Shown: positions 4,714 to 31,906, numbered from the stretch's first letter. The stretch: DNA of 64,000 nt from Stigmatella ashevillena (GCF_028368975.1 NZ_JAQNDM010000002.1:8612425-8676424); one strand, 5' to 3'. Numbers and translations are program-made. Notes: generated by a model not told the origin, from the sequence alone.

Positions 4714-5164
4714 GTCAGCCTCGCGGCAGCGCGTCATGTCTCATCGCGTGATGACACGGTGTGAACGGGGTCGGTGTTCGTCTCAGAACGCCGACCCTTC
4801 GTGTCTCCGTTGAGTGGAAAACCCTGGAAGGTGCGTCCACAGGGTTCATCCGGGCCGCGCCATGCCCCGGAGACGATCCACTTTCGTAGAAGACAACCAA
4901 TCCACCTGAAAAGCGGTGCAATACCGCTGAGGTGTGAATGTGTGTGGAATGGTGCTGGTCAGGCAGGAAATTCGATTTAAGCCCGAAATATTCTGCTTGC
5001 CTGCCTCCAGCAAAGGAGGAAAATTGCCGGACTATTGAAGAGCTATCGCTCGATATGAGAATACTCGCAAATCCGTCTCAGCACATTGCGCCCACATGCT
5101 CGACTGCGGGTGAATCCATTCATCAGTTGAAGCCTTCGTACTTCCGTCCTGGGGGACGTTCCGC
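4714..5164. other. Intergenic region between the two giant repeat genes
   Basis: About 450 bases hold no convincing gene; the short open frames here lack good start signals and protein-like composition. The first 90 bases contain a terminator-like hairpin. The stretch around 4960-5060 is clearly richer in A/T than its surroundings and probably contains the promoter of the next gene. No clear -35/-10 pair could be assigned. Confidence 0.5.
4768..4799 (+). terminator. Hairpin downstream of the first giant gene
   Basis: A 12-bp stem (4768-4779 with 4786-4797) contains one G-T wobble and encloses a 6-base loop. Only a short T-poor tail follows, so it could be a weak intrinsic terminator or an RNA 3'-end stabiliser. 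It lies 55 bases after the stop codon. Confidence 0.45.
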
Positions 5165-15536: not shown

Positions 15537-17270
15537 CTACTTGGGAGCGCGGAAGACGCCTTTGTCAGGGGTGTACCCGTAGACGGAGTGCGCATCGAGG
15601 GCCAGGGAGCGCACGCCGTTGAGGCCATCGGCCAGCACGAGTGGAGTGCCCCCGGCTTTGGGCATGCGCATGACCGAGCCTTCTGTGAGGGGCAGGTCGC
15701 CCCCCCGTCCATCATGCGACCAGTAGAGGAACTGCCCGTCCACGGTGAGCGTGTTGGCCATGCCGCTCACCTGGGCCAGCACCTCGGGAGTTCCGCCTGT
15801 CTTGGGGATGCGCGCCAGCGTGGAAGTGGTGAAGCAGCTGAAGGGGCGGTAGTACGGGCAGAAGCTGGGACAGGCCGCGCACTCGGGCGGGCCGTAGGCG
15901 ACGTAGACGAACTGCTCATCCGTCGCCAGCCCGCTCACCCGCGTCAGCCCCGTGGCCACGGGCGTCAGTGCACCGCCCTCCAGGGGAGAGTGGAACACCG
16001 AGCCCTGCTGGGTCGTCACGTAGAGCCCCGAGTCGTCCACGCGCAGGGCCATGGCATGGCCTGGAACGGAGACGAGCACGCTGGGCGTCCCCACGAACTT
16101 TTTGGGACGGGTCTTCAGCGTGTTGTTGGTCGTCCAGTAGAGCTGCTCTCCAAAGGAGACGATGTTCGTTCCTCCGGCGGTGGGATCGTAGAATGGGCTC
16201 TCCGCACCCTCCAGGGAGATGATCAACAGTCCCGTACCGATCAGGTAGACGCGGCCGCCATTCACGGCCATCGAGTCTCCCCGCCCCACATTCAACCTCA
16301 CGGCCTCTCCGCCCGCCTTCGGCATCCGGTAGAGCCCACCGGTCCGTCCTTCCCCCGTCCAGTAAACGAAGTCCGTGTCCAGGGCGAGTGCTTTGGGCGT
16401 CTCCATCGCGGGCCCCGCCAGCCAGGTCGTGGCGCAAATTCCCTGTGTGCATGCGGCTCCCAGACAGGTGTGTCCGCACTCTCCGCAATGCCGCGGGTCT
16501 GAGCTCACGTCCACCGGCTCTCCGTCACAGGTACGCGGGTCCGCAACAGCTTGCCGGACCGGCCGTGGGAGGTAGACGAGCCCGGTGAGTTCCGCGGCCT
16601 GTCCCGTGGCGCCCAGTGCGTCTTCCGGCCACGCGCGCAGCTTGAAGCGCTGCCCCGTCGGCAGCCCGGACAGCGTGATGCGCATCTGCCAGTTGTCCCC
16701 GCTCATCCAGGCGCTCTCGTGCGTTGGGGCACCGGTGAAGGCAGCCGACTCGGGGACGACCTCCATGCGCAGCCGCACGGCATCGAAGTCTTCATCCACG
16801 CGCTGGGCCCACAGGGTAGGGGTTCCTCGGACCACCGGGCTTGTCAGGGCCACGAGCATGCCGCCCTCATCCTCCAGCACGATGTTGCCTCCCCGAGGGG
16901 CCTTGTTCGGGCGGATGACGCGCAGGAGGAACTCCTGGCGGTCGGTGTGTCTGCCGTTCGTGGCCACCACTGTCACGTGGCTGTCTCCCCACTCCTTCGG
17001 TCCGGGAGCCACCGTGAGCGTCTCGCCCTCCAGCGTGGCATACGTCGGCAGCCCCTCGGCGCTCAGCTCCACGGGCCGTGGGTCCTTGTCCTTGCGCAGC
17101 ACCAGGATCTTGATCAGCAACTGCTCTCCCGAGTCCACGGTCACATCATCGATTGCCGCGAGCGCGAAGCTTCCCTGGGAGTGCTCTGGCTCAGTGGGGC
17201 TCGTCTCGCAGGCAAGGCAGGCAAAGCACGCGAGGAGCACGCACCACGATCCACTGGGTTTCCAGGTCAT
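15537..17270 (-). CDS. Putative lipoprotein with Cys-rich motif and C-terminal beta-propeller (paralog A)
   Basis: The 577-aa product starts MTWKPSGSWCVLL, with a short hydrophobic leader ending in cysteines, consistent with a secreted lipoprotein. Residues 30-130 resemble a cadherin/Ig-like domain. A second beta domain reaches about 260. A compact cysteine motif HCGECGHTCLGAACTQGIC (about residue 285) follows. The rest is a propeller of LDL-receptor class-B/DUF5050-like strands such as 'FVYWTGEGRTGGLYRMPKAG'. It ends VYGYTPDKGVFRAPK. The neighbouring divergent gene is a clear paralog across the whole length. Function is unknown; surface exposure is inferred. The ATG at 17270 is the only start that gives a signal peptide. 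Confidence 0.85.
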   Translation of the reverse strand: MTWKPSGSWCVLLACFACLACETSPTEPEHSQGSFALAAIDDVTVDSGEQLLIKILVLRKDKDPRPVELSAEGLPTYATLEGETLTVAPGPKEWGDSHVTVVATNGRHTDRQEFLLRVIRPNKAPRGGNIVLEDEGGMLVALTSPVVRGTPTLWAQRVDEDFDAVRLRMEVVPESAAFTGAPTHESAWMSGDNWQMRITLSGLPTGQRFKLRAWPEDALGATGQAAELTGLVYLPRPVRQAVADPRTCDGEPVDVSSDPRHCGECGHTCLGAACTQGICATTWLAGPAMETPKALALDTDFVYWTGEGRTGGLYRMPKAGGEAVRLNVGRGDSMAVNGGRVYLIGTGLLIISLEGAESPFYDPTAGGTNIVSFGEQLYWTTNNTLKTRPKKFVGTPSVLVSVPGHAMALRVDDSGLYVTTQQGSVFHSPLEGGALTPVATGLTRVSGLATDEQFVYVAYGPPECAACPSFCPYYRPFSCFTTSTLARIPKTGGTPEVLAQVSGMANTLTVDGQFLYWSHDGRGGDLPLTEGSVMRMPKAGGTPLVLADGLNGVRSLALDAHSVYGYTPDKGVFRAPK

Positions 17271-17505
17271 GGGCTGGGCCAGAGCATTCCCGGTGCCACG
17301 CCGGGCCACTGCCTCAGGCCCGTCGGCCGCAAGCGCTGCCCTCCTGGGCAGATCTCCTCCGCGCCGCGCCAGCTCCCCGCTGCCCGATGGATTTTTCGCG
17401 CAACCTGACACCTGTGTCGTGGTCGCACACGCGCGGCATGGCCGAGCCCGTAGGCGCCGTGCGGCACACAGGATGCAATCGTGAGCCGCCCTACCTGGAG
17501 ATTCC
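17271..17505. promoter_or_regulatory. Divergent intergenic region between paralogous lipoprotein genes
   Basis: The 235 bases separate two outward-facing paralogs and must contain both promoters. The sequence is GC-rich and no convincing sigma-factor elements were recognised. The arms on either side are homologous, so the region is the centre of a large imperfect inverted repeat. Confidence 0.45.
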
Positions 17506-19278
17506 ATGCTCAGGGCTGATGCCGTGCGATTGCTGCTGCTCGTCCCGCTCACCCTCTGGGGGCTCGCGTGCCAGACGGACCCGGGGCCTGAAGAGGGACC
17601 CTCCGAGCAGGAGTTCAGGGTGGTGGAGCTCGACGATGTGACGCTGACCCCCGGTCAGACGCTCAATGTGAAGATCCTCGTGCTGAGCACGAAGGGAGAC
17701 AAGGACCCGCCCCCGGTAGAGCTGAGCGTCGAGGGGTTGCCCCAGTTCGCGACGCTGGAAGCGGACACGCTCCGCCTGGCTCCCGGAGCGGAGGATCTGG
17801 GAGAGAGCCAAGTGCGGGTGATCGCCACGGCGAGGAAGTTGAGGGCCAGTGAGGAGTTCCTCATCCGCGTCATCCGCTCGAACAAAGCCCCGGAGCTCTG
17901 GGAGCCCTTCCTGGCGGATGAGGACGGCTTCTGGCTGGCGACGACGCCTCAGCCCGTTGTGCGCGGTTTTCCCTTCATCAAGTCATCGCTGCGTGACGAA
18001 GACGGAGACGCCACCCGGCTCTTCGCGGAGGTGGTCCCCGAGGGCACGGCCTTCTCCGGGGTGCCGACCCACCAGACGGACTGGGTGCGGGCTTCCTACT
18101 GGAACACGAACTTTCAGCTCACGGGATTGCCCGCCGGGCAGCGGTTGAGGGTCTATGTCTGGGGCGTCGACGAGCGAGGCGCGGTGAGCAACCGGAGGGA
18201 TATCCCCGGGCTGCTCTACAGCCCGCGCCCGCCGCGCCCGTCCAGGGAGGATTGGCGCACCTGTGGCACGCAGCCGGTGGACGTGAGCTCGAATGCCCAG
18301 CACTGTGGTGAATGCGAGCACTCCTGCCTGGGCAGCACGTGCGCCCAAGGCTTGTGCGCGCCGTCCCAGCTCACCGGCCCGTTGCTCGAGAGGCCCACGG
18401 GGCTCGCCGTGGACGCGGGCTTTGTCTACTGGTCGGGGCTGTCTAACACCATGGACGAAGCGCCACCTTGGGGGCTCTACCGCATCCCGAAGGCGGGAGG
18501 CCATGCCGAGCTGATGGCGCGCCGCGAAAGCTCCGCGGTGATCATTGACGGCGACTACGCCTATCTGGCCAGCGGCAGCGTGGCGAGGGTCCCGCTGCGA
18601 GGCGGGGCCGTCGAGCATCTTTTCGATGTTGGCAGTCCTCTGCGGCTCCAGGGTGAGCGGCTCTACTGGGTGCGCAACCAATGGTTCCGGGGCCAACTGG
18701 AGAGCAGCGCCAAGGTACCCGGGAGTACACCGGAGACGCTCGGCACTTACGTGGGCCTGGTTCTGGCCATGCACACGGACGCGCAGGGCGTCTATCTGGG
18801 CACGGACCGTGGCGAGGTGCTCCAGTACCGCTTCGAGAGCAACTCGCTGGAGGGGGTGGCCTCGGGTCTGACGCAGGTGAACGGGCTGGCGACGGATGAG
18901 CAGTTCGTCTACGTCGCCTATGGCCCCTCGGAGTGCAGCTCCTGCCCCAGCCTCTGCTTCGCCTATCGGAGCCTGCGCTGCTTCGTCACCTCGAAGCTGG
19001 TGCGCATTCCCCGGGCGGGTGGGACGCCCGAGGAACTGGCGCAGGTGAGCGGTGCGGCCAACACGCTCACCGTGGAGGGCGAGTTCCTCTACTGGTCACA
19101 TGACGGACGGGTGGGCGACCTGCCCCTCACGGAAGGTTCGGTGATGCGCATGCCCAAGGCCGGAGGCGCCCCCCGGGTGCTGGTGGATGGCTTCAGCGGC
19201 ATGCGCTCCCTGGCCTTCGATGCGCACTCCGTCTACGGGTACGCCCCTGAGCAGGGCGTCTTCCGCGCTCCCAAGTAG
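17506..19278 (+). CDS. Putative lipoprotein with Cys-rich motif and C-terminal beta-propeller (paralog B)
   Basis: The 590-aa protein begins MLRADAVRLLLLVPLTLWG and reaches LACQTD, a good lipobox (G-L-A-C), so an outer-membrane or periplasmic lipoprotein is predicted. It shares the domain order of the divergent neighbour: Ig/cadherin-like N terminus (including 'KILVLSTKGDKDPPPVELS'), a second beta domain, HCGECEHSCLGSTCAQGLC, then a propeller with FVYWSG/RIPKAGG strands. It ends VYGYAPEQGVFRAPK. The last 24 bases of coding sequence are identical in the two paralogs. The biological role is not known. Confidence 0.87.
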   Translation: MLRADAVRLLLLVPLTLWGLACQTDPGPEEGPSEQEFRVVELDDVTLTPGQTLNVKILVLSTKGDKDPPPVELSVEGLPQFATLEADTLRLAPGAEDLGESQVRVIATARKLRASEEFLIRVIRSNKAPELWEPFLADEDGFWLATTPQPVVRGFPFIKSSLRDEDGDATRLFAEVVPEGTAFSGVPTHQTDWVRASYWNTNFQLTGLPAGQRLRVYVWGVDERGAVSNRRDIPGLLYSPRPPRPSREDWRTCGTQPVDVSSNAQHCGECEHSCLGSTCAQGLCAPSQLTGPLLERPTGLAVDAGFVYWSGLSNTMDEAPPWGLYRIPKAGGHAELMARRESSAVIIDGDYAYLASGSVARVPLRGGAVEHLFDVGSPLRLQGERLYWVRNQWFRGQLESSAKVPGSTPETLGTYVGLVLAMHTDAQGVYLGTDRGEVLQYRFESNSLEGVASGLTQVNGLATDEQFVYVAYGPSECSSCPSLCFAYRSLRCFVTSKLVRIPRAGGTPEELAQVSGAANTLTVEGEFLYWSHDGRVGDLPLTEGSVMRMPKAGGAPRVLVDGFSGMRSLAFDAHSVYGYAPEQGVFRAPK

Positions 19279-19288
19279 TCTTCGCTGA

Positions 19289-19309
19289 AAGCGCCTACCG
19301 TCGGCGCTT
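19289..19309. terminator. Small hairpin between convergent genes
   Basis: A 7-bp perfect stem (19289-19295 with 19303-19309) with a 7-base loop overlaps the stop codon of the AgmC-like gene and lies just after the stop of paralog B. There is no T-run, so termination is only possible, not shown. Confidence 0.3.
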
Positions 19310-22300
19310 CCGGGCCAGCACGGCCGACAGGGCCAGACCGATCATCGCCAGCGAAGCCGGCCCCCCACGGGTGGAGGCGCATCCTCCGCCCAGAATGGCC
19401 CAGTCGCTGGGAGGAACCGGCGGGGCCTGAACGTTCCAGGTGGCCGAGGCAGGAGTCGGGTCCACGTTGCCTGCCCGGTCTCGGGCTCGCACCTGGAGGG
19501 TGTGGCTGCCCAAGGCGAGCCCCGGGAAGGTGGGGGCCTCCGAGCACGGGACGAAGGCGGCGTTGTCGAGGCTGCACTCGTACGTCACGTCCGGCTCGCT
19601 GGAGCTGAACTTGAACGAGGCATCGGTCTCGAAGGTGTCACCCGAGGGGCCTGAAACGATGGTGGTGTCGGGGGCCGCCGTGTCGACCACGAAGCCCACG
19701 GGAGCGGAGCTCTCGCTGACGTTGCCAGCCAGGTCAGAGGCGGTGGCAGTGACGGTGTAGGGGCCATCCGGCAGCGGGGAGGGAGGCGTGATCGTCCAGC
19801 GGCCCTCTGCATCCGTGGAGGCCGTGCCCAGCACCTCTCCATTGAGGGTCACTTCCACCGTGCTGAGCGGCTCGGCGGTTCCGGAGATGGCGGGCGTGTT
19901 GTCGCTCGTCACCGTGCCATCGGCGGGGCTGGTCACCACCGGGGCCTGCGGCGGGGTGGTGTCGATGGTGAAGGTGTTGATGTTGGACGAGGGGCTGGCG
20001 TTTCCGGCGGCGGTGGTGGCCACCGCGCTCACATTATAGGTGCCCTGCTGCAGCGGGGTCGTCGGCGTGAAGCTCCAGGCGCCCGTGGCATCCGCAGTGG
20101 TGGAGCCCAGCTCGGTGGTACCGAGGTAGAGCGTCACCGTGATGTTGGCATCGGCGGTGCCCGTGAACACAGGGGTGGTGTCTTGGGTGACCGAGAGGTG
20201 CTCCGGTGTCACCACGACCGGCGCCGTGGGCACGGTGGTGTCGACGATGAAGGTGTTGGTGTTGGACTCGGGGCTGAGGTGGCCCACGGAATCGGTGGCG
20301 GTGGCCTTCACCTGGTGGGTGTCCGCGGAGAGCCCCACGGTGGGAGTGAAGCTCCAGGCGCCGCTGGCGCTGGCGGTGGTGGTGCCGATGGGAACGCCAT
20401 CCACGATGACGGTGACGGTGGCACCCGCCTCGGCGGTGCCGGAGTAGGTGGGCGTGTTGTCACCGATGGTGGACCCATCCGCGGGGGTGAGCACCACGGG
20501 GGCGGCGGGAGCGGTGTTGTCGATGATGAAGGTGTTGGTGTTGGACTCGGGGCTGAGGTTGCCCACGGAATCGGTGGCGGTGGCCTTCACGGTGTGCGCG
20601 CCATCGAGCAGCGGCACGGTGGGGGTGAAGCTCCAGGCGCCACTGGCGTCCGCGGGGAGGGTGCCCACCGGAATGCCATCGACGATGACGGTGACGGTGG
20701 CGCCCGCCTCGGCAGTGCCGGAGTAGGTGGGCGTGGTGTCCGTGAGGGTGGCGCCGTTGGCGGGAGTGGTGACCACGGGGGCCGCGGGGGCGGTGGTGTC
20801 GATGATGAAGGTGTTGGTGTTGGACTCGGGGCTGGCGTTGCCTGCCGCGTCCACGGAGGTGGCCTTCACGGTGTGGGAGCCATCCGGCAGGGGCACGGTG
20901 GGGGTGAAGCTCCAGGCCCCGCTCGTGTTGGCCGTGGCGCTGCCAACGGCGCTTCCATCGACGATGACGGTGACGGTGGCGCCCGCCTCGGCGGTGCCGG
21001 AGTAGGTGGGCGTATTGTCCGTGAGGGTGGCGCCGTTAGCGGGGGTGGTGACCACGGGGGCCGCCGGGGCGGTGGTGTCGATGATGAAGATGTTGGTGTT
21101 GGACTCGGGACTGGTGTTGCCCACGGCGTCCGTGGCGGTGGCCTTCACCGAGTGGGAGCCGTCCAGCAGGGGCGCGCTGGGGGTGAAGCTCCACGCGCCG
21201 CTGGCGCTGGCGGTGGTGGTGCCCACCGTAATGCCATCGACAATGACGGTGACGGAGACGCCTGCCTCGGCGGTGCCGGAGTAGGTGGGCGTGGTGTCCG
21301 AGAGGAGGGCCCCATTGGCAGGGGTGGTGACCACGGGAGAGTCCGAGGCGGTGGTATCGACGATGAAGGTGTTGGTGTTGGACTCGGGGCTGAGGTTGCC
21401 CACAGCGTCGGTGGCGGTGGCCTTCACCGAGTGAGAGCCGTCTGCCAGGGGAACGGTGGGGGTGAAGCTCCAAGTCCCGCTCGTGTTGGCGGTCGCGGTG
21501 CCCACCGGCGTGCCATCGACGATGACGGTGACGGTGGCGCCTGCCTCGGCGGTGCCGGAGTACGTGGGCGTGTTGTCACTGATGGTGGCGCCATGAGAGG
21601 GCGCGATGACCACGGGGGCCGCCGGAGCGGTGGTGTCGATGATGAAGGTGTGGGTGTTGGACTCGGGGCTCGTGTTGCCCACGGCGTCCGTGGCGGTGGC
21701 CTTCACGGTGTGAGAGCCGTCGGCCAGGGGAGCGGTGGGGGTGAAGCTCCACGCCCCACTGGCGTTGGCGGTGGTGGTGCCGATGGGAACACCATCGACG
21801 ATGACGGTGACGGTGGAGCCCGCTTCTGCGGTGCCGGAGTAGGTGGGCGTGGTGTCCTGAGTGGTGGACCCATTGGCCGGAGTGACCACAACCGGAGCCG
21901 CGGGAGCGGTGGTGTCGACGATGAAGGTGTTGGTGTTGGACGGAGCGCTGGTATTGCCCGCCACGTCGGTGGCGGTGGCCCTGACGGAGTGAGAGCCGTC
22001 CAGCAGGGGCGCGGTGGGCGTGAAGCTCCACGAGCCACTGGCGCTGGCAGTGGTGGTCCCCACCGGTGTGCCATCGACGATGACGGTGACGGTGGAGCCT
22101 GCTTCTGCGGTGCCGGAGTAGGTGGGGGTGGTGTCCTGAGTGGTGGACCCGTTGGCCGGAGTGACCACAACCGGAGCCGCGGGAGCGGTGGTGTCGACGA
22201 TGAAGGTATTGGTGTTGGACTCAGGACCGGTGTTGCCCACGGCGTCGGTGGCGGAGGCCTTCACGGTGTGAGAACCGTCGGCCAGGGGGGCAGTGGGGGT

Positions 22301-25300
22301 GAAGCTCCATGAGCCACTGCCATTGGCGGTGGTGGTGCCCACCGGAACGCCATCGACGATGACGGTGACGGTGGAGTTCGCCTCGGCAGTACCGGAGTAG
22401 GTGGGGGTGGTGTCCTGAGTGGTGGACCCGTTGGCCGGAGTGATCACGACCGGAGCCGCGGGAGCGGTGGTGTCGACGATGAAGGTGTTGGTGTTGGACG
22501 GGGCACTGGTATTGCCCACGGCGTCGGTGGCGGTGGCTCGCACGGAGTGAGAGCCGTCCAGCAGAGGCGCGGTGGGCGTAAAGCTCCACGAGCCGCTGGC
22601 GCTGGCAGTGGTGGTGCCCACCGGCGTGCCATCGACGATGACGGTAACGGTAGACCCGGCTTCTGCGGTACCCGAGTAGGTGGGGGTGGTGTCCTGGGTG
22701 GTGGACCCATTGGCCGGAGTGACCACGACCGGAGCGGCCGGGGCGGTGGTGTCGACGATGAAGGTGTTGGTGTTGGACGGGGCACTGGTATTGCCCGCCA
22801 CGTCGGTGGCGGTGGCCCTGACGGTGTGAGAGCCGTCCAGCAGGGGCGCGGTGGGCGTAAAGCTCCACGAGCCGCTGGCGCTGGCGGTGGTGGTGCCGAT
22901 GGGAACGCCATCGACGATGACGGTGACGGTGGAGCCCGCTTCTGCGGTGCCGGAGTAGGTGGGGGTGGTGTCCTGAGTGGTGGACCCATTGGCCGGAGTG
23001 ATCACAACCGGAGCGGCCGGGGCGGTGGTGTCGACGATGAAGGCGTTGGTGTTGGACTCAGGACCGGTGTTGCCCACGGCGTCGGTGGCGGAGGCCTTCA
23101 CGGTGTGAGGGCCATCTGCCAGGGGAGCGGTGGGGGTGAAACTCCATGAGCCACTGCCATTGGCGGTGGTCGTCCCCACCGGCGTGCCATCGACGATGAC
23201 GGTGACGGTGGAGCCCGCTTCTGCGGTGCCGGAGTAGGTGGGCGTGGTGTCCTGAGTGGTGGACCCGTTGGCCGGAGTGACCACAACCGGAGCGGCCGGG
23301 GCGGTGGTGTCGACGATGAAGGTGTTGGTGTTGGACGGGGCACTGGTGTTGCCCACGGCGTCGGTGGCAGTGGCCCTGACGGTGTGAGAACCGTCGGCCA
23401 GGGGGGCAGTGGGGGTGAAGCTCCACGAGCCGCTGGCGCTGGCAGTGGTCGTCCCCACCGGCGTGCCATCGACGATGACGGTGACGGTGGAGCCTGCTTC
23501 GGCGGTGCCGGAGTAGGTGGGGGTGGTGTCCTGAGTGGTGGACCCATTGGCCGGAGTGATCACGACCGGAGCCGCGGGAGCGGTGGTGTCGACGATGAAG
23601 GTGTTGGTGTTGGACGGGGTACTGGTGTTGCCCACGGCGTCGGTGGCGGTGGCTCGCACGGAGTGAGAGCCGTCCAGCAGGGGCGCGGTGGGGGTGAAGC
23701 TCCACGAACCGCCAGCGTTGGCGGTAGTGGTGCCCACCGGCGTGCCATCGACGATGATGGTGACGGTGGAGCCTGCTTCGGCAGTGCCGGAGTAGGTGGG
23801 CGTGGTGTCCTGGGTGGTGGACCCATTGGCGGGAGTGACCACGACCGGAGCAGCGGGAGCGGTGGTGTCGACGATGAAGGTGTTGGTGTTGGAGGGGGCA
23901 CTGGCGTTGCCCGCCGCGTCGGTAGCGGTTGCGCTGACGGAGTGAGAGCCGTCCAGCAGGGGTGCGGTGGGCGTAAAGCTCCACGAGCCGCTGGCGCTGG
24001 CGGTGGTGGTGCCCACCGGAACGCCATCGACGATGACGGTGACGGTGGAGTTCGCCTCGGCAGTACCGGAGTAGGTGGGCGTGGTGTCCTGAGTGGTGGA
24101 CCCGTTGGCTGGAGTGACCACGACTGGAGCCGCGGGAGCGGTGGTATCGACGATGAAGGTATTGGTGTTGGAGGGGGCACTGGTGTTGCCCACAGCATCG
24201 GTGGCGGTGGCCCTGACGGTGTGAGAGCCGTCGGCCAGGGGCGTGGTGGGCGTAAAGCTCCACGAGCCGCTGGCGCTGGCAGTGGTCGTCCCCACAGAAG
24301 TGCCGTCCACGATGACGGTGACGGTGGAGTTCGCCTCTGCAGTACCGGAGTAGGTGGGCGTGGTGTCCTGAGTGGTGGACCCGTTGGCCGGAGTGACCAC
24401 GACCGGAGCCGCGGGAGCGGTGGTGTCGATGATGAAGGTGTTGGTGTTGGACTCGGGGCTGGTGTTGCCCGCCGCGTCGGTGGCGGTGGCCTTCACGGAG
24501 TGAGAGCCGTCGGCCAGGGGCACGGCGGGAGTGAAGCTCCACGCTCCGCTCGTGTTGGCGGTGGTCGTCCCCACCGGAGCGCCGTCCACGATGAGGGTGA
24601 CGGTGGCGCCCGCTTCGGCGGTACCCGAGTAAGTGGGCGTGTTGTCCGTGAGGACGGCACCATTGGCGGGAGTGACCACGACCGGAGCCGCAGGAGCGGT
24701 GGTATCGACGATGAAGGTGTTGGTGTTGGACTCAGGGCTGGTGTTGCCCACGCCATCGGTGGCGGTGGCCTTCACCGTGTGGGAGCCGTCCAGCAGGGGC
24801 GCGGTGGGCGTGAAGCTCCACGAGCCACCGGTGCTGGCGGTGGTGGTGCCCACCGGAACGCCATCGACAATGATGGTGACGGTGGAGCCCGCATCGGCGG
24901 TGCCCGAATAGGTGGGGGTGTTGTCCTGGGTGGTAGACCCGTTGGCAGGGGTGATGACCACCGGCGTGGCCGGGGGGGTGGTGTCGACGGTGAAGGTGTT
25001 GGTGTTGGACTCAGGGCTGAGGTTGCCCGCCGCGTCGGTGGAAGTGGCTTTCACCGTGTGAGAGCCGTCGGCCAGGGGCACGGTGGGGGTGAAGCTCCAG
25101 GCCCCGCTCGTGTTGGCGGTGGTGGTGCCCACGGGGATGCCATCGACGATGACGGTGACGGTGGACCCGGCCTCCGCGGTGCCCGAGTAGGTGGGCGTGT
25201 TGTCCTGGGTGGTGGACCCGTTGGCAGGGGTGATGACCACCGGGGCCGCCGGAGGGGTGGTGTCGACGATGAAGGTGTTGGTGTTGGACGGAGCGCTGGC

Positions 25301-27433
25301 GTTGCCCGCCGCATCGGAAGCGGTGGCCCTCACGGAGTGAGAGCCGTCCAGCAGGGGCGTGGTGGGGGTGAAGCTCCACGTGCCGCTGGCGCTGGCGGTG
25401 GTGGTGCCCACGGTGCTGCCATCCACGATGATGGTGACGGTGGACCCGGCCTCCGCAGTGCCCGAATAGGTGGGCGTGTTGTCGCTGGTGATGGAGCCGT
25501 TGGCGGGGGTGATGACCACCGGGGCCGCCGGAGGGGTGGTGTCGAGGATGAAGGTGTTGGTGTTGGAATCGGGGCTGGTGTTGCCCGCGGGATCGGTGGC
25601 GGTGGCCTTCACCGAGTGAGGGCCATCCAGCAGGGGCACGGTGGGGGTGAAGACCCACGCCCCGCTCGAGTTCGTTGTCGTGGTGCCCACCGGAACGCCA
25701 TCCACGATGATGGTGACGGTGCTGAAGGGCTCCGCTGTGCCGGAGTAGGTGGGCGTGCTGTCCGTGATGGTGGTGTTGTGGACCGGGGTGCTGACCACCG
25801 GAGCGGCGGGAGGGGTCGTGTCCACCACGAAGGTGTTGGTGTTGCTGACAGGCCCCAGGAGCCCGTCACTGTCCGCTCGGGCGTTCACGGTGTGAGTGCC
25901 CGGCGGGAGGGGTGTGGTGGGGGTGAACGACCAGTTGCCACTGGCATCGGGAGTCGTCCGTCCCACCTCGAGGCCATCCACGTAGATGACCACCTCGGTT
26001 CCTGGAGCTGAGTCGGGAATCGTGCCGGAATAGGTGGGGGTCGTGTCGTTGGTGCGCGAGTTGTGCGCCGGCGTCACCACCACCGGGGTGGGCACAGGCG
26101 AGTAGCAGCCTGGAATGAGACTAAGGACCCCCTCGGCGCCTGGCTCTGCTCCGTAGTAATCCTCGACGGACAACTGTAAGCCAGGGAGCCCACCGCTGAC
26201 GGAACTGGGGGGCGGGACGCAACTTCCGTCACAGGACTGAATGACGATGTGGCCACCACCACCGCCTCCTCCGGGGCCCAATGGGTAGTTCGTGTTGGCT
26301 CCGTCACCGCCATAGGCATGAACGCGGGTGAAACTACAATCCGCCTTTGCCGTGAACCGTAGGTGAATACTGCCGCCGCCGCCGCCGCCGCCGGCTCCAT
26401 CCATGAGGGAGTTCGAGGCATAGAAGCCATCGGCGAGGATGGAGCCATTGCCGGAGAGCCCAGCCGATCGGATGAAGATGATGCCTCCCCCCGTGCCTCC
26501 GGCGATGGTCGAGGTGTTTTTGACGTGCCCTGCCCCTGCTCCACCGCCTTGGGTCAAGCGCGAGAGTGGCGGGAACACCAAGGCCGCTCCTCCTTCGCCT
26601 CCTACTTCCCGGCCGTCCTCGCTGTTTCCTCCACGGCCACCTGGACCGCCGTTGCCGCCGCCGCCGCCGCCAGATCGAAGGCAGACGCCGCCGCCGCCAC
26701 CGTTGAGCATCCGGCCGCGGCCGGTGCTTCCGAAGCGGGTTTGGGCAATGCTTTCCCCTCTCTGCGCGCCCGCTGGACCCGGCTGATCCAACTCTGAGCA
26801 ATCGGTGGTGGTGGTGGTGTCCTTGGCTGCCTGTCCGCCGCGAAAGCCTCGGCTCGTGACGGTGATGGAGCCGCTGTTCGTCACCAACCCCTGGGCGAGG
26901 AAGGCCACGACCCCTCCCGTGCTGTTGTTTCCATCCCAGGCGCGGGCGGTGATGTTGCCACTCGCGGAGATGGTGACCGTCGTGTACTCCGGCACCCGGA
27001 TGACCTGGGAGACGTTGGCCGCGTACGAGTTGCTCAGCGGCTCTTCCAGGGTCAGCGTCGTTCCGGTGACCGCAGTGACCCGCGCGAGCTCCCACCGGCC
27101 TACCAGATCGTCGGAGAGGTCGATGGTGGCCGGTCCTCCGCCCGAGGTGGGCTCGGGGACGATGCCCGTCGTCTGGAGCACCATCACCAAGTCGCCCGCG
27201 CCCGCCGACCAACCCGAGGTGGCCGTGATCGGGATCGTGGTATCCCCGGTGGCCAGCGGGGCCCTCACCCGGGCGTACCGGTTGATGATCTGGTTGTTCG
27301 TGCCGATCGAGAGTGCGCCGTCCCTCCCGGTGCCGATGCCGAACAGGTCCTGCGCTGCCCAGGTCGGCAGCGCGCCCACGAGCACCGCCATCAGGGCGGT
27401 GCGGAGGAGGTTCCTCATGGATGGAGTCTTCAT
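19295..27433 (-). CDS. agmC-like: AgmC-like giant Ig-repeat protein with MYXO-CTERM-type tail
   Basis: The 2712-aa protein has a signal peptide (MRNLLRTALMAVLVGALPTWA). Residues 27-440 form a beta-rich domain with long glycine tracts (GGGGGG runs near residues 235-260 and 340-380) of the type seen in Myxococcus AgmC, named from adventurous-gliding mutants. About 23 Ig-like repeats of 93 residues follow (core 'TPTYSGTAEAGSTVTVIVDG', then 'SWSFTPTxPLxDGSH'). A different Ig domain with DVTYECSLDNAAFVPC comes next. The tail has GGGCAST, a hydrophobic helix and RKRRR, a MYXO-CTERM-type sorting signal. It starts 15 bases after the OmpA-like gene, so one operon. Surface adhesion or motility is inferred; the agmC name rests on recollection of the family, not on a search. 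Confidence 0.85.
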   Translation of the reverse strand: MKTPSMRNLLRTALMAVLVGALPTWAAQDLFGIGTGRDGALSIGTNNQIINRYARVRAPLATGDTTIPITATSGWSAGAGDLVMVLQTTGIVPEPTSGGGPATIDLSDDLVGRWELARVTAVTGTTLTLEEPLSNSYAANVSQVIRVPEYTTVTISASGNITARAWDGNNSTGGVVAFLAQGLVTNSGSITVTSRGFRGGQAAKDTTTTTDCSELDQPGPAGAQRGESIAQTRFGSTGRGRMLNGGGGGVCLRSGGGGGGNGGPGGRGGNSEDGREVGGEGGAALVFPPLSRLTQGGGAGAGHVKNTSTIAGGTGGGIIFIRSAGLSGNGSILADGFYASNSLMDGAGGGGGGGSIHLRFTAKADCSFTRVHAYGGDGANTNYPLGPGGGGGGGHIVIQSCDGSCVPPPSSVSGGLPGLQLSVEDYYGAEPGAEGVLSLIPGCYSPVPTPVVVTPAHNSRTNDTTPTYSGTIPDSAPGTEVVIYVDGLEVGRTTPDASGNWSFTPTTPLPPGTHTVNARADSDGLLGPVSNTNTFVVDTTPPAAPVVSTPVHNTTITDSTPTYSGTAEPFSTVTIIVDGVPVGTTTTNSSGAWVFTPTVPLLDGPHSVKATATDPAGNTSPDSNTNTFILDTTPPAAPVVITPANGSITSDNTPTYSGTAEAGSTVTIIVDGSTVGTTTASASGTWSFTPTTPLLDGSHSVRATASDAAGNASAPSNTNTFIVDTTPPAAPVVITPANGSTTQDNTPTYSGTAEAGSTVTVIVDGIPVGTTTANTSGAWSFTPTVPLADGSHTVKATSTDAAGNLSPESNTNTFTVDTTPPATPVVITPANGSTTQDNTPTYSGTADAGSTVTIIVDGVPVGTTTASTGGSWSFTPTAPLLDGSHTVKATATDGVGNTSPESNTNTFIVDTTAPAAPVVVTPANGAVLTDNTPTYSGTAEAGATVTLIVDGAPVGTTTANTSGAWSFTPAVPLADGSHSVKATATDAAGNTSPESNTNTFIIDTTAPAAPVVVTPANGSTTQDTTPTYSGTAEANSTVTVIVDGTSVGTTTASASGSWSFTPTTPLADGSHTVRATATDAVGNTSAPSNTNTFIVDTTAPAAPVVVTPANGSTTQDTTPTYSGTAEANSTVTVIVDGVPVGTTTASASGSWSFTPTAPLLDGSHSVSATATDAAGNASAPSNTNTFIVDTTAPAAPVVVTPANGSTTQDTTPTYSGTAEAGSTVTIIVDGTPVGTTTANAGGSWSFTPTAPLLDGSHSVRATATDAVGNTSTPSNTNTFIVDTTAPAAPVVITPANGSTTQDTTPTYSGTAEAGSTVTVIVDGTPVGTTTASASGSWSFTPTAPLADGSHTVRATATDAVGNTSAPSNTNTFIVDTTAPAAPVVVTPANGSTTQDTTPTYSGTAEAGSTVTVIVDGTPVGTTTANGSGSWSFTPTAPLADGPHTVKASATDAVGNTGPESNTNAFIVDTTAPAAPVVITPANGSTTQDTTPTYSGTAEAGSTVTVIVDGVPIGTTTASASGSWSFTPTAPLLDGSHTVRATATDVAGNTSAPSNTNTFIVDTTAPAAPVVVTPANGSTTQDTTPTYSGTAEAGSTVTVIVDGTPVGTTTASASGSWSFTPTAPLLDGSHSVRATATDAVGNTSAPSNTNTFIVDTTAPAAPVVITPANGSTTQDTTPTYSGTAEANSTVTVIVDGVPVGTTTANGSGSWSFTPTAPLADGSHTVKASATDAVGNTGPESNTNTFIVDTTAPAAPVVVTPANGSTTQDTTPTYSGTAEAGSTVTVIVDGTPVGTTTASASGSWSFTPTAPLLDGSHSVRATATDVAGNTSAPSNTNTFIVDTTAPAAPVVVTPANGSTTQDTTPTYSGTAEAGSTVTVIVDGVPIGTTTANASGAWSFTPTAPLADGSHTVKATATDAVGNTSPESNTHTFIIDTTAPAAPVVIAPSHGATISDNTPTYSGTAEAGATVTVIVDGTPVGTATANTSGTWSFTPTVPLADGSHSVKATATDAVGNLSPESNTNTFIVDTTASDSPVVTTPANGALLSDTTPTYSGTAEAGVSVTVIVDGITVGTTTASASGAWSFTPSAPLLDGSHSVKATATDAVGNTSPESNTNIFIIDTTAPAAPVVTTPANGATLTDNTPTYSGTAEAGATVTVIVDGSAVGSATANTSGAWSFTPTVPLPDGSHTVKATSVDAAGNASPESNTNTFIIDTTAPAAPVVTTPANGATLTDTTPTYSGTAEAGATVTVIVDGIPVGTLPADASGAWSFTPTVPLLDGAHTVKATATDSVGNLSPESNTNTFIIDNTAPAAPVVLTPADGSTIGDNTPTYSGTAEAGATVTVIVDGVPIGTTTASASGAWSFTPTVGLSADTHQVKATATDSVGHLSPESNTNTFIVDTTVPTAPVVVTPEHLSVTQDTTPVFTGTADANITVTLYLGTTELGSTTADATGAWSFTPTTPLQQGTYNVSAVATTAAGNASPSSNINTFTIDTTPPQAPVVTSPADGTVTSDNTPAISGTAEPLSTVEVTLNGEVLGTASTDAEGRWTITPPSPLPDGPYTVTATASDLAGNVSESSAPVGFVVDTAAPDTTIVSGPSGDTFETDASFKFSSSEPDVTYECSLDNAAFVPCSEAPTFPGLALGSHTLQVRARDRAGNVDPTPASATWNVQAPPVPPSDWAILGGGCASTRGGPASLAMIGLALSAVLARKRRR
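20200..25790 (-). repeat. About 20 tandem 279-bp near-identical coding repeats
   Basis: The central part of the AgmC-like gene is a tandem array with a constant 279-base period (93 codons). Units between about 21,850 and 24,400 are almost identical at DNA level, while units near both ends have diverged. Such arrays change copy number by unequal recombination and are prone to misassembly. Confidence 0.88.
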
Positions 27434-27448
27434 GTGTGGTCCCCGCGG

Positions 27449-29281
27449 TTACGGCTGGCCGCCCTCGCGGGGCGTGGTGAGGAATTCGACCCGGCGGTTG
27501 GCCGCCCGGCCTTCGACAGTGTCATTCGATGCGACGGGGTACTGCCGCCCGTAGCCCTTGGCCACCAGGCGCCCGGTGGCCACGCCGCGGGTGACGAGGT
27601 AGTCGCGCACCTCTTCGGCGCGCTTCTGGGACAGCTCGCGGTTGTAATCCTGGCTGCCCCGCTCGTCCGTGTGGCCTTCGATCCAGATCTTCTCCAGCTC
27701 CGGGTGCTCGATGATGATCCGCGCCACCTGATCCAGCAGCTTGTTGCTGCGGGGCAGGATGGAGGCCTTGTCGGAGTCGAAGTAGACCTTGTCCTTGATC
27801 TCGATGCGATCCCGCTGGATCTCCACCAACTGCGGCTGCTGAACCGGGCAGCCCTGGTTGGCGGCCGGGCCCGGCTCGTTCGGGCAGTTGTCGCGGTGAT
27901 CCGGTATCTGGTCCTTGTCTGTGTCCTTCGGAGGGCAGCCCTTCAGCTCGTGGATACCCGACACCGTCGGGCACTTGTCCACCGAGTCCTCGATGCCATC
28001 CTCGTCCGTGTCCGGGCAGCCCTGGAACCGCGCGATGCCCGCCACTGCCGGGCACTTGTCCACCGAGTCCTCGATGCCATCCCCATCCGCATCCGGGCAG
28101 CCCTGGAACTGTGCCACGCCGGGCACCGCCGGGCACCGGTCATCCGGATCCACGATGCCATCGCCATCTGTGTCCTTCACCGGGCATCCCTGCGCATCCA
28201 CCCGGACGCCCTGGCCCACCCCCTGGCAGGTGTCCGCGAGGTTCGCCACCCCGTCGTTGTCGTCATCCAGGTCCGGACACTGCTCGGCGGTGTGCTTGCC
28301 TCCCGCCACGCACCGGAACGGCGTGTTCACCAGGGCCACCCCCAGCAAACCTCGGAAGGACGGCGTGCCCGGCCCGTCGCCCACGCCCGCCCCCACCAGC
28401 GCATAGCCCTCGAACGCAGGGCTCAGGGGCACCCGCACCCCGGCCAGCGCCTCCACGGAGCTGCCCGAGCGCTGGAAGGGAACGGATGTCAGCACGTTCA
28501 GCTCTCCGCGCACGCCCTCGTTCGTGGTGGCCAGCACCGCGCCCAGGCGCAACTCCTGGCCCAGCTCGTCCTGGATGTTCTCGTCCTCCACCAGAATGAT
28601 CTTCGAGCGGAGCGTGAGGCCCGCATCCAGCGCGGCGCGCAGCAGGCCGAAGCGGCGGCCCACCATCACGCTGGGGATGATGCGGGGCGAGCCGTCCTTC
28701 GCCAGGGCCGTGGCGCTGCCCAGGGGCAGCCCCACCTGCGCACCGATGGAGAGATCCACGGGCTGCTCATCCGCCTGGGAAAGCAAACCGAACCGCACCG
28801 AGAGGTACGGGGTGCCGAGCGCCAGCCCCTCGGCGGGCTTCTCCAACCCGAAGGCGGTGAGATCATCTCCTCCCTGGGTCACCAGCACCGGCACCTGCAC
28901 GCCCAGCTCCAGCCAGTTGAACAGGCCGTAGGCTGCCGCCAGGTGGGCGGTGACGCGCTGGCTCACCAGCGCGCCCAGCTCCTCGCCATCCTTGAAGAGC
29001 ACCAGCGGGTCTTTCTGGTAGTGGCCGGTCAGCGAGAAGCGGTATCCGCCCCGGTTCAGCACCTCGCCGGTGCCCAGCAGCAGAGAGCCCTTGCCGCTGG
29101 GGTTGAGCGTCAGGCGCTCCAACTCGATCTCTGGAAGCCCTTGCGGTTGCGCGAGCGCGGCGGTTCCCGCCAGCACCGTGGTGAGCGCGAGCACCCGGGC
29201 CCAGCAGACCGGGCTCCGTGTCAGGGCCACGCGTCGAGAGGTATCAGCCTGCGATCCTGCGAGCGGTGTGGCGTCGGTCAT
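27449..29281 (-). CDS. OmpA-family outer-membrane protein with thrombospondin type-3 repeats
   Basis: The 610-aa protein has a long N-terminal signal segment (cleavage probably after ...GTAALA, residue 44). Residues 45-325 look like a transmembrane beta-barrel of the porin/transport type (alternating strands, 'LGVQVPVLVTQGGDDL', 'YALVGAGVGDGPG'). TSP3-like calcium-binding repeats (330-473, recurring DxDGDGIxDxxDxCP) follow. The C terminus is an OmpA domain (about 495-605) with the peptidoglycan-binding signature 'IEGHTDERGSQDYNRELSQK'. The ATG at 29281 follows an AGGA element. The giant AgmC-like gene is next on the same strand, so an outer-membrane anchor or export partner is a reasonable inference. 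Confidence 0.88.
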   Translation of the reverse strand: MTDATPLAGSQADTSRRVALTRSPVCWARVLALTTVLAGTAALAQPQGLPEIELERLTLNPSGKGSLLLGTGEVLNRGGYRFSLTGHYQKDPLVLFKDGEELGALVSQRVTAHLAAAYGLFNWLELGVQVPVLVTQGGDDLTAFGLEKPAEGLALGTPYLSVRFGLLSQADEQPVDLSIGAQVGLPLGSATALAKDGSPRIIPSVMVGRRFGLLRAALDAGLTLRSKIILVEDENIQDELGQELRLGAVLATTNEGVRGELNVLTSVPFQRSGSSVEALAGVRVPLSPAFEGYALVGAGVGDGPGTPSFRGLLGVALVNTPFRCVAGGKHTAEQCPDLDDDNDGVANLADTCQGVGQGVRVDAQGCPVKDTDGDGIVDPDDRCPAVPGVAQFQGCPDADGDGIEDSVDKCPAVAGIARFQGCPDTDEDGIEDSVDKCPTVSGIHELKGCPPKDTDKDQIPDHRDNCPNEPGPAANQGCPVQQPQLVEIQRDRIEIKDKVYFDSDKASILPRSNKLLDQVARIIIEHPELEKIWIEGHTDERGSQDYNRELSQKRAEEVRDYLVTRGVATGRLVAKGYGRQYPVASNDTVEGRAANRRVEFLTTPREGGQP

Positions 29282-29623
29282 GTCGTCATCATCCTGCGAG
29301 GGCGGCAAGGAGGGCTGGGTGTGTGCGGACTGCTCCGGGCCGGGCGCTGTCTGGCACGAGCGTCCAGGGCTCGCGTTACCCCTTCAGCTTGCCACGAGGA
29401 CAGGAGAAGAAGCAGCGCGGAGGCCAAGAAACAGGGCCGGCGTGGCTGCGGATATCTTCGCACACGGGACGCGTTCAGCCACAAGGGCATCCAGGCTGCA
29501 CGTCTCTGATGGGGGTGAATCGGGGGGGCGCTCCCGGGATCGGCAGGCAAGCGCGGGGCCGCCGGAGAGTGGGAGAGTGCGGCACATGAGAAATGGGAGG
29601 GGATCCTGAAGTAGAAAGGAACC
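29282..29623. other. Divergent intergenic region (OmpA-like / ELWxxDGT genes)
   Basis: These 342 bases separate divergent genes and should hold both promoters. An AAAGGA ribosome-binding site lies just before the ATG at 29624. Short open frames here have no protein-like features. No inverted repeat or clear sigma motif was seen. Confidence 0.45.
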
Positions 29624-31906
29624 ATGTGGTCCCCACGGCCTTTGCTCCTGACGTTGTCCCTTCTCTCCGTGCTGGGGGGCCTCTCCCGCCTGGCGTATGC
29701 GGACGCTTCCGTGAATCCAGGGCTCGCCGATGACTGTGGCGACAAGGTGTACCTGGTCAAGGACATCGCCCCGCGCTGCAGCAGCCCCACCAATGACTGT
29801 GACAGCGCGGTTCCCACCCACATGGTGGAGATGGGCGGCGTGCTCTTCTTCCAGGCGTTTGATGGGGAGCAGGGGGTCGACGGAGGCCATGGCACCGAGC
29901 TCTGGAAGAGCAACGGGCAGGCGGGAGGTACCGAGATCGTCCTGGATATCGCGGAAAATTCGGATCCCAAGGAGCTCACGGTTGTGGCGGACACGCTGTT
30001 CTTCGTGGCCCGAGAGGGGGAGATGTACGCGTTGTGGAAGACCGATGGCTCGAAAGCGGGCACCCAGCGCGTCAAGCAATTCACCTCGGATCCGTCCGAC
30101 TTCGGGCTCACCGCGTTGGGCAACACGCTGTTCTTCAAGAGAGACGGGATGGGCAACGGCGCTGTGAAGAAGCTCTGGAAGAGCAACGGGCTCGACGGTG
30201 GGACGGTCGAGGTGAACGCCGCGGGCGGGATGGAGTACTCGAATCCGCAGTACCTGACGGCGTTGGGCAACCAGCTCTATTTCCAGGCCGAGAATCCCGT
30301 CCATGGCGCCGAGCTGTGGAAGAGTGACGGGACGGAAGCGGGGACCCGGATGGTGGCGGACCTCCTGCCCGGCCTGGGGCGGGGGTCGAATCCCTCGGAG
30401 CTGACCGTGGCGAACGGACGGCTCTTCTTCCTCGCCGCCGATCCAACGGACACCTTGGGGAACAACGGCCTGTGGAAGACCTCGGGCTCGGAGGTGGACA
30501 CGGAGCTCATCGTCCCGGCGAAGGACTCCAGCACGTTGGGCTCACTCACCGCCGCGGGCGACAAGCTCTTCTTCACCGTCGATGAGAGCAAGGAGCTGAG
30601 GGTGTACCGGGACGTGCCGGGCGCGGAGCTCATCCGGCGCTTCTCCGCGTCCATCTCGCAACTGACCTATGTGCACGGGGTGCTTTTTTTCGCCCGCGCG
30701 AACGAGCTGTGGAGAAGCGATGGGACGAAGGTCGGCACTCAGCTGGTGAAGGCGTTTGACACCACCTATTCCATTCCCCTGATCGCTCGGGGGCCCGGCA
30801 TGGCCATCTTCGTCGTGAACAGCGGGACAGGCTACGAGCTGTGGAAGAGCAATGGGCAGACGGAGGGGACCCAGTTGCTTCATGCCTATCCCCGCAAGCG
30901 GACCGGAGGCGACGTGCCCCCCACGGACGCCATCGTGAGCTCGGCGAACAAGCTCTTCTTCGCTGCCACGCAGCTCCGGGCCGGAAGCACGCAGTACACC
31001 GTGGGGGACGAGCTGTACGCGGTGGACTTCAAGGACGTGGATTGCACCGCTCCGGTGGTCACCCCCTGCCAGGATTTCATGACGGTGGAGGCGCTCACCC
31101 CTCAGGGCGCGCAGGTGTATTACCTGCGCGCGCCCGTGACGGACAATTCGCTCGCGCCCACCTCGCTGACCTACACCCCCGCCTCCGGGAGCCTCCTGCC
31201 CTGGAGTGAGACGGTGCCCTCCCGCGTGGAGGCGGTCGCGCGGGACGGTGTGGGCAACGAGACGCGGTGCACCCTGGATGTCTACGTCAAAGACACCATT
31301 TCTCCGAGGGTGCTGTGCCCAGAGGCGCCCCTCATCAAGGAGGCGGAGAGCCTCGAGGGCACCCGCGTCACCTATGATGAGGTGTCGGCCAGTGACGCCG
31401 TCCTCTTGAAAGAAGTGAGCTACAGCCCGCCCTCGGGGAGCCTGTTTCCGATAGGGCGGACGGACGTCGAGGTCACCGCGCGGGATGGGGCAGGGAAGAC
31501 GGCGACGTGCGCCATCCACGTGGAGGTGCGGGACCGGGTGGCGCCCTCCATCGAATGCCCCGGGCCCCAAACGTTCACGGTCCCGGGGAGGAGCGGGGGC
31601 CGGGTCGAGCTGCCCGAGGCGTCCGCGCGGGACAACCTGGCGCCGCCCGAGGTGAGCTACAGCCCGGAGCGTGACAGCCTCTTTCCCGAGGGAGAGACGG
31701 TGGTGACCGCCACCGCGACGGACTCGGGGGGCAACACCGCGAGCTGCACCTTCCAGGTCACCGTGGTGGGAGAGGGGGAGGAGGAGGAGACGCCAGACAA
31801 GGGCTGTGGCTGCCAGTCCGGTTCCTTGCAAGGGGGCGCCGTGTGGCTGCTGCTCATGCTGTTGCCTGCCTGGGCGCGCCGGAGGGCCGCTAGACTGGAG
31901 GCGTGA
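29624..31906 (+). CDS. ELWxxDGT-repeat / HYR-domain MYXO-CTERM surface protein
   Basis: The 760-aa protein has a clear signal peptide (cleavage probably after residue 26, RLAYA|DAS). Seven ELWxxDGT-type repeats (for example ELWKSDGTEAGTR, ELWRSDGTKVGTQ) lie between about residues 90 and 420 within a beta-propeller-like region. Three HYR-type Ig domains (about 470-725) each contain the 'SYSPPSGSLFP' core and a C-terminal cysteine. A Glu-rich linker precedes the tail GCGCQSGS, a hydrophobic helix and RRRAAR, matching the MYXO-CTERM pattern. Family members are exported and surface-attached; the ligand is unknown. It overlaps the next gene by 4 bases (GTGA), so the two are co-transcribed. Confidence 0.9.
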   Translation: MWSPRPLLLTLSLLSVLGGLSRLAYADASVNPGLADDCGDKVYLVKDIAPRCSSPTNDCDSAVPTHMVEMGGVLFFQAFDGEQGVDGGHGTELWKSNGQAGGTEIVLDIAENSDPKELTVVADTLFFVAREGEMYALWKTDGSKAGTQRVKQFTSDPSDFGLTALGNTLFFKRDGMGNGAVKKLWKSNGLDGGTVEVNAAGGMEYSNPQYLTALGNQLYFQAENPVHGAELWKSDGTEAGTRMVADLLPGLGRGSNPSELTVANGRLFFLAADPTDTLGNNGLWKTSGSEVDTELIVPAKDSSTLGSLTAAGDKLFFTVDESKELRVYRDVPGAELIRRFSASISQLTYVHGVLFFARANELWRSDGTKVGTQLVKAFDTTYSIPLIARGPGMAIFVVNSGTGYELWKSNGQTEGTQLLHAYPRKRTGGDVPPTDAIVSSANKLFFAATQLRAGSTQYTVGDELYAVDFKDVDCTAPVVTPCQDFMTVEALTPQGAQVYYLRAPVTDNSLAPTSLTYTPASGSLLPWSETVPSRVEAVARDGVGNETRCTLDVYVKDTISPRVLCPEAPLIKEAESLEGTRVTYDEVSASDAVLLKEVSYSPPSGSLFPIGRTDVEVTARDGAGKTATCAIHVEVRDRVAPSIECPGPQTFTVPGRSGGRVELPEASARDNLAPPEVSYSPERDSLFPEGETVVTATATDSGGNTASCTFQVTVVGEGEEEETPDKGCGCQSGSLQGGAVWLLLMLLPAWARRRAARLEA

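Follow-up and report, generated by a model that had tools for sequence, protein, structure and literature searches.

The window analysed here, 64,000 nucleotides of the Stigmatella ashevillena genome (GCF_028368975.1, NZ_JAQNDM010000002.1:8612425-8676424), carries on its minus strand a gene for a TraB-like protein predicted to form an outer-membrane barrel and, 15 bp downstream on the same strand, a gene for a giant, predicted surface protein of the AgmC family. The original prediction had described an OmpA/TSP3 gene and a 2712-aa gene on one strand, 15 bases apart, and both open reading frames (ORFs) lie at those places with a gap of exactly 15 bp. We consider it reasonably probable that the products of the two genes make up a two-part complex for adhesion at the cell surface, consisting of an AgmC-type adhesin and a TraB-like, peptidoglycan-anchored barrel partner; the observed basis of this proposal is formed by the domains, the predicted folds, the co-conservation of the pair and the occurrence of both modules in a shared single-ORF form.

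The TraB-like and AgmC-type genes

Gene starts are those of the longest ORF unless stated otherwise, and signal peptides were judged by hydrophobicity together with an A-x-A motif. The features of the pair are as follows.

27449..29281 (-): TraB-like gene, 610 aa from ATG, with signal peptide, 12-strand beta-barrel, TSP3 linker and OmpA peptidoglycan-binding domain
29156..29212 (-): hydrophobic helix of the signal peptide, residues 24-42, followed by A-x-A-Q
28325..29044 (-): predicted 12-strand outer-membrane barrel, residues 80-319 (AlphaFold)
27842..28228 (-): TSP3 repeats, DxDxDGxxD, of the Ca-binding type (TSP_3 match)
27953-28168: 81-bp DNA repeat in the TSP3 region
27494..27784 (-): OmpA C-terminal domain (PF00691) of the peptidoglycan-binding type (profile and fold matches)
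27434..27448 (-): intergenic gap between the two genes, 15 bp
19295..27433 (-): AgmC-family surface protein gene, 2712 aa (NF047640 match)
26201..27412 (-): AgmC N-terminal glycine-rich domain, residues 8-411 including the signal peptide (profile and AlphaFold)
20203..25844 (-): tandem array of 279-bp units coding immunoglobulin (Ig)-like Big_13/Big_6 repeats, 23 units of 93 aa counted
19298..19396 (-): MYXO-CTERM-type tail with Cys, hydrophobic helix and Arg/Lys cluster (borderline score)

The TraB-like ORF is open as far as a TTG at 29308, that is 27449-29308 (-), and the ATG at 29281, which the original prediction took as the start, yields the 610-aa product. This protein matches OmpA (PF00691, E 3e-23) and TSP_3 (E 1e-20), and in a genome search its barrel half and its OmpA half both match TraB; against the TraB model NF033763 it reaches 270.6 bits, short of the cut-off of 700. 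By sequence, then, it is a full-length homologue of TraB and not TraB itself. In its AlphaFold model (predicted local distance difference test score, pLDDT, 86) a barrel of 12 strands leads through a TSP3 linker to an OmpA domain, which resembles Pal/OmpA folds with Z about 16-18.

The N-terminal domain of the 2712-aa protein belongs to the AgmC family (NF047640, an NCBIfam family for an adventurous gliding motility protein) with 495 bits, well past the cut-off of 275, and its AlphaFold model is confident (pLDDT 90, predicted template-modelling score 0.89). AgmC has several paralogues per genome, with nine AgmC_N matches in the genome of the window. The domain is likely to form the distal tip of the protein and the Ig-like array its stalk. 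The array (period 279 bp, 20.2 copies, 85% matches) corresponds to 23 Big_13 stretches in the domain search, and as the three closest relatives have 16-20 units of the same motif against 23 here, stalk length seems to change by whole units. The description of the protein as MYXO-CTERM-type holds for the layout of its tail, where GGGC is followed by a hydrophobic helix and RKRRR, while the scores straddle or miss the thresholds: TIGR03382 gives 17.1 bits for a 99-aa tail and 14.6 for 59 aa (cut-off 15.85), and TIGR03901 gives 14.4-16.0 bits (cut-off 20). A paralogue at another locus of the same genome, L042, exceeds both cut-offs (26.9 and 27.9).

A role in gliding, which the original prediction had raised, seems less likely, the only link being the family name; a literature search on AgmC in Myxococcus found no paper. 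We claim no ligand from the fold of the AgmC_N domain, as its best matches (Z 5.4 over 77 residues) are loosely to phage tail proteins, tailspikes and polysaccharide lyases, and a match to phage gp38 (Z 3.8) is too weak for use. A profile search of genome contigs with the AgmC_N alignment yielded five loci, all from Bacteroidota. In one Bacteroidota protein (L133, 8902-11070) an AgmC_N-like domain, below the NF047640 cut-off at 149.7 bits, is joined to a sorting tail of the type IX secretion system (T9SS), and another (L134, 8824-11184) ends in a CHU_C T9SS signal; these tails suggest that the domain is surface-borne in another phylum too.

Relation to TraAB and conservation of the pair

As published, TraB has a barrel joined by a TSP3 linker to an OmpA domain; TraA and TraB form 1:1 complexes, and TraB has been proposed to anchor TraA junctions to peptidoglycan (PMC12045341). 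The window pair shares much with TraA/TraB of Myxococcus xanthus, namely a partner that is homologous in its barrel and OmpA halves and has the same order of signal peptide, barrel, TSP3 repeats and OmpA domain, a second protein with a signal peptide and a tail of MYXO-CTERM-type layout, and two tightly linked genes on one strand. It differs in its receptor half, which is an AgmC_N domain with Ig repeats, whereas TraA has a TraA N-domain and Cys-rich repeats; the TraA models (NF033759 and TIGR04566 for the N-domain, TIGR04201 for the Cys-rich repeats) find no match in the 2712-aa protein. It differs as well in gene order: traA comes first in the 10 traAB loci examined, its stop lying at or over the start of traB (the traAB overlap being 4 bp), whereas the window has the barrel gene first and a 15-bp gap. 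Lastly, its partner stays far below the score expected of TraB, and the genome holds a true traAB elsewhere (TraB 953 bits; TraA, at L039, 1067 bits). Because the TraB-like match is below cut-off and a separate traAB is present, we interpret the window pair as a paralogue of the TraB type whose receptor half is something other than TraA. The parallel with traAB that the original prediction drew is thus upheld by the TraB homology, the barrel/TSP3/OmpA layout and the co-conservation described below, and fails at the TraA half, the gene order and the separate traAB.

Co-conservation was assessed on AgmC_N loci of relatives that were picked from a genome search with long frames first, so that the counts are not measures of prevalence. 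A TraB-like gene lies immediately upstream on the same strand in 47 of the 88 sampled AgmC_N ORFs, and from this count we conclude that the adjacency of the two genes is not due to chance; lack of such pairing in other genomes had been named in advance as grounds for abandoning the idea of a two-gene system, and the idea survives this test. A further 20 of the 88 contain AgmC_N and a TraB-like module within one ORF. Gaps in the barrel-first pairs of relatives are mostly 9-33 bp. Pairwise distances of the AgmC_N domains correlate with those of their TraB-like partners (r = 0.78), whereas when partners were reshuffled within genomes 2000 times the correlation averaged 0.42 and never rose above 0.71, with 0 of 2000 reaching 0.78. 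The pair is inherited as a unit, the cause of which could be function or linkage. All four of the closest loci (L056, L060, L065 and L070) are paired, and in the first three the identity is 75-82% for the AgmC domain and 87-92% for the TraB-like partner, the AgmC domain diverging faster.

The genome of the window has two further barrel-first pairs, one at L050, which is divergent, and one at L042 that is preceded by an additional TraB-like gene (4326-6236). With six similar loci the latter makes seven at which a second TraB-like gene precedes a TraB-like/AgmC pair to form a three-gene set, and in a quick tree these extra copies form a separate clade. AgmC_N forms without a partner fall mostly into one separate clade of short proteins; L052, for example, carries two short AgmC-domain genes in tandem (5581-7704 and 7753-9777 (-)) with no TraB-like neighbour. 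Separately, L067 (2027-6463 (-)) holds a near-copy of the AgmC gene of the L070 pair in which no TraB-like neighbour was found and the C-terminus is odd; this is probably a frameshifted copy.

Predicted single-ORF polyproteins

In all 20 single-ORF cases the junction before the barrel consists of a G-C motif, a hydrophobic helix, an Arg-rich segment, a second hydrophobic helix, A-x-A-Q and the mature barrel. We predict from these sequences that the junction is a MYXO-CTERM followed by an internal signal peptide, and that the product is a polyprotein cut twice; the topology would be consistent with this, the Arg-rich loop being cytoplasmic and both cut sites lying on the periplasmic side. That the single ORFs are simple gene fusions without a MYXO-CTERM was rejected, as each of the 20 has both a MYXO-CTERM-type segment and a signal peptide inside its reading frame. 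About 21 other long TraB-like ORFs, whose passengers are cadherin-like, Big or Cys-rich, share this junction, and in an alignment of 25 junctions the motif Gly and Cys are invariant and A-x-A-Q is conserved in at least 90%. The internal MYXO-CTERM scores 16.0-24.5 bits with TIGR03382 in six ORFs (L048, L041, L158, L142, L147 and L085) and 13.9 bits, just below cut-off, in L086.

A precedent for this architecture is MXAN_5598 of M. xanthus, in which an internal MYXO-CTERM, an adhesin, a barrel and an OmpA domain have been noted and likened to TraA plus TraB (PMC11980579), and which has been detected in outer-membrane vesicles (PMC4158809). MXAN_5598 lies between ftsA and ftsZ; the AgmC-type polyproteins L086 and L093 are likewise flanked by FtsA and FtsZ, and we therefore take them to be the MXAN_5598 locus in relatives. 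These relatives have, as the window pair does, an AgmC_N domain and a TraB-like module, but with both halves in one ORF, the adhesin first and an internal MYXO-CTERM and signal peptide between them, where the window has two genes, barrel first. The passage on MXAN_5598 in PMC11980579 does not mention an internal signal peptide, and it terms internal MYXO-CTERM motifs rare; in our search of 195 Myxococcota genomes, by contrast, more than 100 of the matches listed (count 109) cross the junction in frame without a stop, and these represent at least three families, often with other adhesins. A literature search on bacterial polyproteins with internal signal peptides gave nothing useful, and none of the papers searched described the barrel-first pairs, the wide occurrence of the polyproteins or the connection with AgmC.

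The single-ORF form occurs in two AgmC_N clades, which for the AgmC half means two or more origins or exchanges. On the TraB side, a quick tree with long branches clusters the fused modules together near true TraB; a fusion of the window pair itself was set aside, the polyprotein barrels belonging to this other clade.

A proposed wall-anchored adhesin and its alternatives

We infer the surface location and processing of the two proteins, their physical contact and an adhesive function, the last of which is likely, along the following lines. The AgmC-type protein would be exported by the Sec pathway, lipidated, cut at its MYXO-CTERM by myxosortase and brought to the outside of the cell; there, a stalk of about 23 Ig repeats would hold the glycine-rich N-domain outward. 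The TraB-like protein would be embedded in the outer membrane by its 12-strand barrel, gripping peptidoglycan through its OmpA domain and, by analogy with TraB for TraA, giving the lipid-anchored adhesin a fixed, load-bearing footing. A 1:1 ratio might be fixed directly by the polyproteins and by coupled expression in the gene pairs; that TraA and TraB form 1:1 complexes, and that a polyprotein would enforce such a ratio, we count in favour of a two-part complex. The genome also encodes a type II secretion system GspD and five Rce1-type proteases, which we likewise count in favour of the proposal.

Several observations weigh against this proposal. Among the 88 AgmC_N ORFs, the remaining 21 lack a TraB-like gene both next to them and in the same ORF, so the domain can function without one, at least in cis; linkage alone can give co-divergence of partners; the tail of the window AgmC protein scores close to the MYXO-CTERM cut-offs; and in the quick tree, with its long branches, the polyprotein barrels form their own clade, closer to TraB than the pair partners are, so that the fused form is not simply the window pair minus a stop.

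Among other explanations, the AgmC protein might act alone as a surface adhesin in gliding or substrate contact, the OmpA-type gene being a general envelope stiffener that shares its promoter. The AgmC_N ORFs without a TraB-like neighbour, mostly short, would fit this, as would the large number of OmpA-type proteins; however, the partner is one specific TraB-like subfamily recurring in the same place and order, and both modules also occur within one polypeptide, and we find this explanation unlikely. Less probable still, and in our view doubtful, is that the barrel serves mainly as an export channel for the AgmC protein rather than as an anchor. The barrel model does match FapF (Z 22.9), a COG4313 channel (Z 22.0) and the translocators of NalP (Z 20.7), EstA and EspP, the likeness to the FapF amyloid secretion channel and autotransporter translocators spanning Z 17-23, and the barrel gene directly precedes its possible cargo gene. 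But 12-strand barrels are common, sequence identity to the matched folds is low (8-16%), and the window protein, unlike these channels, has a C-terminal OmpA anchor and no passenger in cis; moreover, the polyproteins have a predicted signal-peptidase site between passenger and barrel, by which the barrel would be cut off before export of the passenger in cis. That the pair is a second outer-membrane-exchange machine, by which touching cells fuse outer membranes and swap lipids and proteins, is very improbable: one partner is homologous to TraB with the same layout and the other is MYXO-CTERM-type, but family matches show no relation of the receptor half to TraA, the genes stand in the opposite order, a separate traAB is present in the genome, published screens suggest that TraAB are the sole proteins needed for exchange (PMC12045341), and disruption of the TraA paralogue MXAN_4924 gave no exchange defect (PMC3325183).

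Returning to the anchored adhesin, we regard it as an evenly balanced possibility that TraAB belongs, as one branch, to a large class of two-part surface complexes in myxobacteria, in which a MYXO-CTERM surface protein has its own TraB-type wall-anchored barrel. The class would be encoded in three ways: as barrel-first pairs (like that of the window), as adhesin-first overlapping genes (traAB) and as polyproteins from a single ORF, which myxosortase and signal peptidase I would cleave into a 1:1 pair. TraAB has so far been treated as a single kin-recognition device; if the TraB-type barrel is a common anchor of many surface proteins, kin recognition may derive from a general means by which adhesins are secured, across the outer membrane, to the cell wall. 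The polyproteins would be an unusual case among bacteria, a single chain that contains two complete export precursors and two different protease sites. With them, both the myxosortase model and the 1:1 stoichiometry of TraA and TraB can be tested directly.

Divergent from the TraB-like/AgmC pair of the window, at 29624-31906 (+), lies a gene for an ELWxxDGT/HYR repeat protein whose MYXO-CTERM match (19.4, cut-off 20) falls just under threshold, and close by at 40-4713 and 5165-13717 (+) are two further giant Ig-like proteins (PF16403) of 1557 and 2850 aa. The genes at 15537-17552 (-) and 17506-19278 (+) are divergent with overlapping starts; both have weak matches to SinM and to an MXAN_6577-type Cys-rich family, and they are likely paralogues.
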